Assembly: GCA_018052945.1 (NCBI GenBank)
Contig: JAGPMH010000012.1
Location: forward strand, 1 to 43,393
Length of the DNA stretch: 43,393 nt
Reading direction: 5' to 3'
From: Negativicutes bacterium
GTDB taxonomy: Bacteria; Bacillota; Negativicutes; JAGPMH01
The position numbers and the translations under genes were made by a program. Position 1 is the stretch's first letter. Every line of letters starts with the position of its first letter. Under the pieces are notes generated by a model. It was not told the DNA's origin. It saw nothing but the letters and a program-made list of their open reading frames with translations, and did no database searches. Of the stretch, positions 4,134 through 7,357 are shown one piece after another.

Positions 4134-4390
4134 AAATATAAAAAAAGCAATGAATAGGAATAGTAGAAGTTTTATAAATTTTCAGAGAGCCGAAGGTTGG
4201 TGCGATTCGGTAATTGTGGACTTTGAACTCACCTAAGAGCTGTAGCCTGATATGTAGGGTGTGCCGGACTTCCACCGTTAACGGGATAGATGATGTTAGT
4301 CATCGAAAAAGTGGACTTATTTGATAAGTCAATTAGAGTGGTACCACGAGTTTACCCCGTCTCTATTATTAGAGGCGGGTTTTTGTTTTT
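4134..4390 (+). promoter_or_regulatory. T-box leader, leucine specifier
   Basis: This is a tRNA-sensing leader that controls leuA by transcription antitermination. Stem I starts with the AGAGAGCC...GGTTGGTGCGA pattern at about 4184-4205 that is typical of T-boxes. The specifier loop reads GAA-CTC-A at 4225-4231, giving the leucine codon CTC at 4228-4230. The conserved T-box sequence AGAGTGGTACCACGAG lies at 4335-4350 and is followed by the terminator hairpin. Uncharged tRNA-Leu would pair with the specifier and with the TGG bulge, favour the antiterminator and turn leuA on. The codon matches the biosynthetic role of the downstream gene. Confidence 0.93.
4356..4390 (+). terminator. T-box intrinsic terminator
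   Basis: CCCGTCTCT (4356-4364) pairs with AGAGGCGGG (4371-4379) with one G-T wobble, followed by a T-rich run to 4390. It is mutually exclusive with the antiterminator formed by the T-box sequence. Confidence 0.9.
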
Positions 4391-4417
4391 TACAGGAGTT
4401 AATAGGGAAAAAGATGG

Positions 4418-4468
4418 GGTTGAGCGATGGTTAAACAATAGTTAAACAATAGTTCGACTATCGTTCCC
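4418..4468 (+). repeat. 11-bp tandem repeat array upstream of leuA
   Basis: Four contiguous 11-bp units follow one another: GGTTGAGCGAT (4418-4428), GGTTAAACAAT (4429-4439), AGTTAAACAAT (4440-4450) and AGTTCGACTAT (4451-4461), then a partial CGTTCCC (4462-4468). The consensus is RGTTNARCRAT. The array sits between the T-box terminator and the leuA ribosome-binding site, inside the leuA 5' UTR. The same unit recurs downstream of leuA in both orientations. Function unknown. Confidence 0.8.
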
Positions 4469-4503
4469 AAAAGTATAGTTATAAAAAAATAGGAGTGATA
4501 ATA

Positions 4504-6048
4504 ATGGATAGAAAAATTTTGATTTTTGATACAACCTTGAGAGATGGTGAGCAAGTACCTGGTGCGAAGCTTAATCTTGATGAGAAAATTAGAATAGCAC
4601 ACCAACTAAAAAAACTTAATGTTGATATTATTGAAGCTGGGTTCCCGATTTCATCACAAGGTGATTTTGAATCAGTAAAACGAATTGCTCAAGAAATAAA
4701 AGATGGTCCAATGATTACCGCGTTGGCTCGCGCTGTTAAAAAAGATATTGATGCAGTATATGAAAGTGTAAAATATGCGGATAGACCACTTATTCACATG
4801 GTTCTTGGCGTATCGGATTCTCATGTTAATCAAAAAATGAGAAAGTCCAAAGATGAAATTTTGCAAATTGGTGTTGATGCTGTTAAATATGCTAAAACTT
4901 TATTACCGGAAGTTCAATATTCTACGGAAGATGCCTCCAGAGCTGATTTTGAATACCTATGGAAAACTATTGAGGCTGTGGTAAAAGCAGGAGCGACAAT
5001 GATTAATGTTCCTGATACAGTGGGTTATGCAGTACCGGAGTTATTTGGTGAATTGATTGCCAAATTAAATTATCGTTTGAAAAACTTGAATGACAAAGTA
5101 ATACTAAGTGTACATTGTCATAATGATACTGGTTTAGCAACTGCCAATAGTTTAGCTGCTGTTAGAAATGGTGCGGACAAGGTGGAGTGTACTATTAACG
5201 GTATTGGTGAACGAGCTGGTAATGCCGCGATGGAAGAAATAGTTATGGGGATTAAACTTCATCCGGAGTACTATAAAGCAAGTACCAATATTGTGACAAC
5301 AGAAATAAAAGCAACTTCGAAGATGGTTAGTGATTTGATGGGCTTGGATATTCAGGTTAATAAAGCTATTACTGGAGGCAATGCCTTTGCACATTCTTCC
5401 GGTATTCATCAAGACGGTTTGTTAAAGGATCGCAACACTTATGAAATTATCAGACCGGAAGATGTTGGGGTAGAGGATATGGAATTAGTATTAACGGCTC
5501 GTTCTGGTCGCCATGCCTTTAAAAGTTCTATTACCAAATTCTTAAAAGCAGAATTAAATGAAGCTGATTTCGAAAAGATTTTTGAAAAATTCTTGGAGCT
5601 TGCGGACCGTAAAAAAGAAATTTATAATTATGACTTGTATCATCTTGCCGAAGCTTTTTATATGGAACAAGGCAAACAAGCTGGTCCGATGCAAGGAAAA
5701 CTTTATGAATTGGTTAATTCTCAAGTTGTCAGCAATGATATTTTCCCTTCGGCCAGTGTGAAAATTAAACAAGGGGAAAAAGTATTTAGTGATAGTGCGG
5801 TTGGTGATGGCCCGATTGATGCGTTGTATACTGCTATTAAAAATATTGTTAATGTTGATATTGAATTGCTAGAATATCGTATTACCAGTACTTCCAAAGG
5901 CAAAGAAGCGTTGGGGCGCGTTAATCTACAGCTTAAACACAATGGTAAGATTTATCCGGCCAAAGCTGTTGACACGGATATTATCAGAGCAAGTGCGATG
6001 GCCTTTTTAAATGGTGTAAATGATATTATTATTGAAAAATTCATATAA
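4504..6048 (+). CDS. leuA: 2-isopropylmalate synthase
   Basis: The enzyme joins acetyl-CoA and 2-oxoisovalerate, the first committed step of leucine synthesis. The catalytic TIM barrel begins with [12 protein letters not shown], and HCHNDTG provides the metal-binding histidines; [10 protein letters not shown] is also conserved. The C-terminal 120 residues form the LeuA regulatory domain that normally binds leucine. At 514 residues the protein has the usual full length. I chose ATG 4504 because AGGAG at 4491-4495 is a well-placed ribosome-binding site and overlaps the alternative GTG at 4495. The leucine T-box upstream argues against citramalate synthase. It stands alone: no other leu or ilv gene is adjacent, which is unusual for a T-box leuA. 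Confidence 0.94.
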
Positions 6049-6099
6049 TATAAACGTAAAGAAACTAAGCTCAGGCTTAGTTTCTTTACGTTTATATTA
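6046..6099 (+). terminator. leuA terminator, perfect 25-bp inverted repeat
   Basis: The arms 6046-6070 and 6075-6099 are perfectly complementary over 25 bp around a TCAG loop, and the left arm starts at the leuA stop codon. The right arm is T-rich but has no clean terminal T run, so it may act in both directions or also protect the mRNA 3' end. Confidence 0.75.
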
Positions 6100-6104
6100 A
6101 CGAT

Positions 6105-6260
6105 AGTGAAACAATGGTAGAATGGTTGGGGAAAAATAGTGGAAATATTGTTTAACGGTGGATGATATCATATTGTTATTTACAATATTCCCCCACCGTT
6201 TAACTATTGTTTAACCATTGTTCCACAACTGTTCTCCAACTGTTCTCCAACCGTTCACCG
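6105..6260. repeat. 11-bp repeat arrays in inverted arrangement
   Basis: Five plus-oriented 11-bp units run from 6105 to 6159 (AGTGAAACAAT, GGTAGAATGGT, TGGGGAAAAAT, AGTGGAAATAT, TGTTTAACGGT). Six minus-oriented units run from 6195 to 6260; on the minus strand they read CGGTGAACGGT, TGGAGAACAGT twice, TGTGGAACAAT, GGTTAAACAAT and AGTTAAACGGT. The two sets face each other across a spacer holding ATATTGT/ACAATAT. Segments 6130-6161 and 6193-6224 are complementary at 24 of 32 positions in repeat register, so a large hairpin or cruciform is possible. No gene is seen between leuA and 6355. Confidence 0.8.
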
Positions 6261-6265
6261 GATGC

Positions 6266-6294: not shown

Positions 6295-6354
6295 AAAAGA
6301 CAGCAAAAGATAATGGTAGGACAGGGAAGTTTTAGGGTATTGGAGGGTAGAGAT

Positions 6355-7104
6355 TTGTATGAGAAATATATAGTTGTAAAGCAATATAAATTTGATCCGT
6401 TTATGGCGATTGATATTGCTGAGCAGGCTGTCAAACTCCAAGAAAAGTATAATGTGAAGCTTAATTTTCATAATGATAAAGCCGGGATAATTCCGGCTAC
6501 TGATTTTCTATTATTAATGGATCTTCCGGTAGATAGTTCCAACAAAATTACTGTGAACGGCAATTCAATACAGGGTAAAAATGCGTTGTTGGAATTTGAA
6601 GATTACTTAAATAACTATCAAAAAGAAGAAAAAAATATTTGCTCCGCCGAAAACATTGTCGATTTATTGCATAGTGCGAAAAATATCATCGAAAAAGATG
6701 TTTTAGCCAATCAAAATAGAGTTAATCATATGAATGGTTGGAGTTCGATTCGCTTTAAAAGTGAAACCTCAAAAAGCAAGCAACTACGTGAATTAGGTAG
6801 TAATGCTAATTTTGCTGATTTTATTGGCTGTAGTCCGGTTATCAATGAAATTTTGACGCTAGCAGGCAAGGCGGCGAAGGTTCATTCCACGGTATTATTG
6901 ATTGGGGCCAGCGGAACCGGAAAAGAAGTTATTGCAGAGGGCATTCATAAAGCCAGCTTGCGTAATAACGCTCCGCTAATCAAAATAAATTGTTCGGCAA
7001 TTCCTGAAAATTTATTAGAAAGCGAACTGTTTGGGCATGAAAAAGGTGCGTTTACCGGTGCTATTAAGCGTAAACTTGGTAAAACCGGTTTATATTATGG
7101 TTAA
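6355..7104 (+). pseudogene. Truncated HPr-like / sigma-54-dependent activator
   Basis: This is the front half of a sigma-54 enhancer-binding regulator. Residues about 1-85 resemble an HPr fold (DPFMAIDIAEQAVKLQ and KITVNGNSIQGKNALLEF), but the position of the phosphorylatable His is an Asp or Phe. After a linker the AAA+ domain starts with FIGCSPVINEIL, Walker A GASGTGKE and the sigma-54-contact loop GAFTGA. The protein then stops within about 20 residues, so Walker B, sensor motifs, arginine fingers and the DNA-binding HTH are all missing. I place the start at TTG 6355, seven bases after GGAGGG; an ATG at 6313 lacks such a site. Sequence beyond about 7095 belongs to a glycerol facilitator, so this is a deletion remnant and is probably inactive. 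Confidence 0.85.
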
Positions 7105-7357
7105 AGCTAATATTCCCATGAGTATTTTTCCATGTGTAGTCGGTATTTTGATTTGGACAATTGGTCTTAGTCTAGGTGGAACTACCGGTTATGCCTTAAA
7201 TCCGGCACGTGATCTAGGTCCAAGGATTGCTCATGCAGTACTACCGATTAAATGGAAGGGTGAGTCTGACTGGTCTTATGCGTGGGTGCCGATTGTTGGA
7301 CCATTAATTGGGGGCGGGCTGTCATTTTTAATTGCTAAACTTATTGGAATATTATAA
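7098..7357 (+). pseudogene. C-terminal fragment of a glycerol facilitator (MIP/aquaporin family)
   Basis: About 85 residues match the last third of GlpF-type channels: transmembrane segment 5 ([18 protein letters not shown]), the second NPA box in the form [13 protein letters not shown], and the final segment ([20 protein letters not shown]). The first NPA box and four transmembrane segments are absent, so no channel can form. The frame can be opened from ATG 7098, which overlaps the stop of the regulator remnant, but no ribosome-binding site precedes it. The junction with the regulator lies between about 7075 and 7105. Both pieces plausibly came from one glycerol-uptake locus that lost its middle. 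Confidence 0.85.

Follow-up and report, generated by a model that had tools for sequence, protein, structure and literature searches.

The arrays that flank and follow leuA in the window (the whole stretch of 43,393 nucleotides analysed here) are built of an oriented 11-mer, AAC-RATR-GTT-N, which is AAC-YATY-GTT-N in reverse and has eight fixed and three free positions. On balance, and with moderate confidence, we favour the view that they are a single instance of an oriented tandem repeat that is dispersed between genes and turns over by whole units, and whose word is constrained by a factor reading the core. Turnover by whole units, together with a constrained and oriented core, is the demonstrated part of this explanation. 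The repeat fits best among the scattered short intergenic tandem repeats (TAACTGA, STRR and long simple sequence repeats, LSSR), as a new variant with a constrained sequence and with a function that we infer.

At the leuA locus (Table 1), two period-11 arrays face each other after the gene, as the first-pass annotation had claimed, and both score above every shuffle. The left array has unit starts at 6106, 6117, 6128, 6139 and 6150, and the units of the right array run in register from 6187 (6198, 6209, 6220, 6231, 6242 and 6253). The best five-unit scores (maximum 40) were 30 for the left array, 32 for the right array and 34 for array 1 (at 4419), and the top five-unit score in 200 shuffles of the whole window was 28. 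When lags from 5 to 21 were tried at the loci examined, lag 11 alone yielded strong arrays. Of the 32 positions in each arm (6130-6161 and 6193-6224), 24 are complementary, ATATTGT (6170-6176) pairs with ACAATAT (6182-6188) in the fold of the spacer, and the two identical minus-strand units GGAGAACAGTT are present in the right array. The two arms had also been described as sharing one register, which is correct inside the hairpin but not on the linear sequence, where the unit starts are offset (1 versus 5 modulo 11).

Table 1. Features at the leuA locus, in positions of the window
Feature	Position	Strand	Basis or remark
T-box leader of leuA	4141..4367	+	Rfam RF00230, 144.7 bits
T-box terminator stem	4356-4379		Terminator scan
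Array 1, about five 11-bp units	4408..4473		Sequence, array scans, TRF
leuA, 2-isopropylmalate synthase	4504..6048	+	TIGR00973, 633.8 bits; NF002086
Terminator-like perfect 25-bp stem with 4-nt loop, leuA 3' end	6046..6099		Fold and terminator scan
Left array of five degenerate units, most in plus (purine-linker) orientation	6099..6163	+	
Spacer separating the facing arrays	6164..6186		ATATTGT/ACAATAT inner hairpin, 6170-6188
Right array, six to seven units facing the other way (plus-strand linkers YATY)	6187..6263	-	

Array 1 lies between the T-box terminator upstream and the leuA ribosome-binding site downstream, with RATR linkers leading and one YATY linker last. The stem at the 3' end of leuA (fold -33.6 kcal/mol, z -9.8) is distinct from the left array but abuts it, the array starting where the stem ends. 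The proposal that the arrays bracket leuA did not hold: many other intergenic sites across the genome carry arrays beside unrelated genes, leuA has its own terminator-like stem upstream of the paired arrays, and the first array sits downstream of the T-box terminator. A scan for intrinsic terminators (a G+C-rich stem followed directly by a T-run) gave no call inside 6100-6263, and the first 25 kb of the window had no plasmid matches. The gene after the arrays (6313-7357) encodes a sigma-54 activator whose 168-position domain breaks off near position 88, where the sequence passes directly, in a different frame, into a C-terminal aquaporin (MIP) segment; this junction is either a deletion scar or an assembly chimera.

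The word does not depend on the consensus used to search for it. Period-11 stretches were also located by self-similarity alone, and nearly all the clusters so found outside the Bacteroidetes, and 13 of 23 within them, were AAC-RATR-GTT-N. Between neighbouring units, written as GTTNAACNATN, the free positions 4, 8 and 11 differed at frequencies of 0.47-0.56 and the core positions at 0.25-0.32; in the consensus-free search, the three most variable positions were identical in nearly every lineage. Positions 8 and 11 belonged to the same purine or pyrimidine class in 83% of units, compared with 50% expected. Exact AAC.AT.GTT links within arrays were RATR or YATY, with some RATY and scarcely any YATR, a rule seen in almost every lineage, including Clostridia, Bacteroidetes and this genome. 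The rule was not imposed by the search, since the scan of the genome collection fixed position 4 as A or T and left positions 8 and 11 open.

Within this genome, the pattern GTTNAACNATNGTTNAACNATNGTT with up to three mismatches occurred at 106 places, versus 4 for the reversed control, and about 20 arrays were found among the sampled loci, intergenic and between unrelated long open frames; these counts are based on pattern searches and on a sampling of stretches, and the neighbouring frames are known as ORFs. Several arrays are located at contig ends; thus, the draft assembly probably breaks there, and the array count is a lower bound. Over the sampled loci of this and the other array-bearing genomes, 115 of 116 arrays lay outside open frames. 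All six frames were stopped in 65% of the arrays with at least four units, versus 29% after shuffling, so the intergenic confinement is due at least partly to the stop codons that the unit brings into most frames of both strands. Of 62 co-directional cases, 45 had their purine linkers on the coding strand, a weak metric that general strand composition could explain as well.

The orientation of units within arrays follows a rule of its own. On either strand, arrays tend to open with purine-linker units and to close with pyrimidine-linker units (80 versus 21 arrays, p = 3e-9). Permutation of unit order within arrays gave p = 0.0005 each for this genome, STCSWMC_22, AS21/AS22 and G179/G141, and no polarity in CSMAG, the Bacteroidetes and Syntrophomonas wolfei, which have few arrays; inward polarity was thus strong in four of seven lineages. 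The inverted, inward-facing arrangement noticed after leuA is real and is found again in further arrays, also of other genomes; the mirror-image arrays of leuA are thus one instance of a wider inward-orientation rule.

This polarity lets arrays fold back, and it is possible, though unlikely, that the facing arrays act as a transcribed element, in which a long RNA stem, working in both directions, terminates transcription or protects the ends of mRNAs. The RNA fold of 6100-6262 reaches -55 kcal/mol, compared with -34 for shuffles (z -5.6), and unit order favours folding slightly (mean z -0.38 +/- 0.14). However, the unit is nearly self-complementary, which accounts for the long stem of 6099-6263; any two opposite runs of AAC-RATR-GTT-N pair, and thus pairing alone is no evidence for a selected hairpin. 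When the partners of six facing array pairs from this genome were exchanged, the mean local-alignment score was 37.3 in cis and 42.4 in trans, with MFEs behaving likewise. An arm-specific hairpin was therefore rejected, and the specific hairpin first suggested for leuA is not supported, as its own arms pair no better than foreign ones and the order of its units adds little stability. In addition, arrays of a single orientation exist (for example, 14 units in S. wolfei), array 1 would place such a structure within the leuA 5' leader, a strong stem is already present at leuA, and pairing of the arms leaves the avoidance of YATR linkers unexplained. On the other side, two rumen Bacteroidetes keep an inverted array after a gene perfectly conserved across both arms, with diverged surroundings, which suits a selected hairpin there.

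Comparison of related genomes bears on how the arrays change. Two Syntrophomonas genomes of 94% identity, S. wolfei subsp. methylbutyratica (G218) and G101, differ by a one-unit, 11-bp indel at one array, which backs the earlier suggestion that copy number changes by whole units. In AS21 and AS22 (about 80% identity), arrays begin at the same place, next to the same ribosome-binding site or stop codon, and consist of different units. Whole-unit change, the six-frame stops and large differences within a genus (125 matches in G179, 4 in its sister G141) would all be expected of a plain neutral satellite, that is, a slippage-prone short repeat with no binding partner, excluded from genes by its stop codons. 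This explanation seems rather unlikely, however, as the contrast between core and free positions is alike in unrelated lineages, several phyla have the identical word, and the linkers are oriented with inward polarity.

Other repeats are found in the same gaps. Octamers of the CCAACTGA kind and other short repeats adjoin arrays in STCSWMC_22 and G179, and the word thus belongs to a broader class. An intergenic mosaic of G179 (L181:15950-17700) combines 11-mer arrays, CCAACTAA/CCAACTGA octamers, AGCAGTTAGCAG-type repeats and direct repeats of 100-160 bp. In G141 (L201, L203), a tandem repeat of about 200 bp, GCAATGAATTACCTGCTACGG..., occupies the gap where G179 has an 11-mer array; the same gap may sometimes be filled by a quite different repeat in sister species. 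In S. wolfei subsp. methylbutyratica, a MITE-like element of about 420 bp with many copies (L187:8496-8927; ends GATTCTACTGCAAAAA / TTTTTGCAGTGGAGTC) is inserted in one of the 11-bp arrays, where ATAGTT appears to be a target duplication. Fragments of the ACCACAAAGAGCAC type, which resemble another short repeat of environmental genomes, adjoin arrays at L031:800-850 and L037:1-40.

The scan of the collection found at least 118 stretches, and among the matches listed a few genomes hold most. In whole-genome counts, which allowed up to two mismatches and had controls near zero, STCSWMC_22 had 625 matches (G239 is probably an assembly of the same genome, so that their two counts are not independent), AS21ysBPME_83 had 243, a Bacteroides-labelled MAG 209, an Alkalibaculum MAG 208 and a Lentisphaeria MAG 100. 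The many-copy hosts are thus a few Clostridia, Bacteroidetes and one Lentisphaeria genome. In a phylum sample, 12 of 398 genomes had a match, and the word was absent from all 379 other species in the class of the present genome. Archaeal membership was rejected, Methanofastidiosum genomes yielding one or two matches each, which were not counted, as was viral carriage, the sole IMG/VR match having TATA linkers of the YATR type that is avoided in arrays. A search of open-licence papers for the sequence of the word found no paper.

It is very improbable that the arrays are remnants or sites of a mobile system whose transferable enzyme would recognise AAC-RATR-GTT and either seed or copy them: the scattered distribution, the explosive copy numbers in single species and the inward-pointing ends, like paired enzyme sites, agree with it, but neither target duplications nor shared cargo were seen, no recurrent neighbour gene was identified, the Y1 transposase is absent from this genome, and no integron integrase rose above the cut-off in 18 genomes.

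In the explanation that we favour, a dispersed repeat whose core is read by a factor, arrays would grow and shrink through slippage or unequal exchange of whole units, which we think the likeliest route. A putative factor would read the near-palindromic word once per helical turn and purge changes in the core. Such a reader would most likely be a DNA-binding dimer or filament, which would suit a near-palindrome with a pitch of 11 bp that avoids YATR and its two flexible pyrimidine-purine steps. The hairpin of 6099-6263 may then be a by-product of joining two opposite runs and need not be a selected feature. A repeat can be constrained in other ways than by a bound protein, and gene conversion between arrays or copying directed by a template could have the same effect.

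Among known repeats, TAACTGA heptamers occur in Beggiatoaceae, Cyanobacteria and Bacteroidetes, scattered and with no evident mechanism (MacGregor 2015, PMC4679880). They resemble the present arrays as short, intergenic, stop-rich direct tandem repeats that are scattered over unrelated groups with no evident mechanism of transfer, and their copy number changes between strains by whole units (PMC4679880). However, the TAACTGA unit is an exact 7-bp sequence, mostly in one orientation and just upstream of start codons (PMC4679880), whereas the present word has 11 bp with three free positions, is near-palindromic and often inward-facing, and is not tied to start codons. Long simple sequence repeats (Mrazek 2007, as described in PMC4679880) and the cyanobacterial STRR heptamers likewise occur in scattered genomes, with units of 5-11 nt, and slippage has been proposed for them; the unit described here differs in being degenerate, with a fixed core common to several phyla. 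The present arrays share with the LSSR, STRR and TAACTGA repeats a head-to-tail series, in excess of chance, of units no longer than 11 nt, an intergenic position, dispersal within the genome and sporadic occurrence among species. Those repeats have near-identical units, whereas three free positions and a degenerate core are found here; we therefore file the word as a variant rather than a plain member of this kind. The parC site of plasmid R1 also has 11-bp repeats, iterons bound by ParR (PMC9426499), and a title cited there gives ten direct repeats flanking a promoter; parC is a single plasmid centromere site with direct repeats, unlike the many chromosomal sites found here.

REP/RAYT elements and integron attC sites are similar in being inverted short motifs between genes. 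The core of attC is GTTRRRY, which resembles GTTRAAC. The enzymes of both systems were not found in this genome, however, and no cassettes surround the arrays. For REP/RAYT, the Y1 transposase (PF01797) had no match in this genome (G000) or in G074. For attC, the integron integrase (TIGR02249) was below the cut-off in all 18 genomes and had no match at 1e-10 in the present one. With the integron integrase model, no tyrosine recombinase at all was found at 1e-10 in this genome, although it is rated 99.8% complete, and 13 of 14 control genomes had matches. A LexA box was also considered, AAC-N4-GTT resembling GAAC-N4-GTTC, and was rejected, the DNA-binding domain of LexA (PF01726) having no match in G000 or in six further genomes with arrays (G064, G067, G069, G070, G074 and G075).

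The arrays pose the same question as TAACTGA (PMC4679880), namely, why one short repeat litters single species in unrelated phyla and spares their relatives. One quite improbable answer is that the word is the recognition site of an undescribed system that has moved between phyla and whose transferable protein both binds and propagates inward-facing intergenic arrays; if this is true, such a system would give single species hundreds of copies and their sisters few or none. With its defined core, free positions and orientation rule, the word makes the question testable, and some hosts are in culture, Syntrophomonas wolfei among them, and have sister species whose copy numbers are very different.
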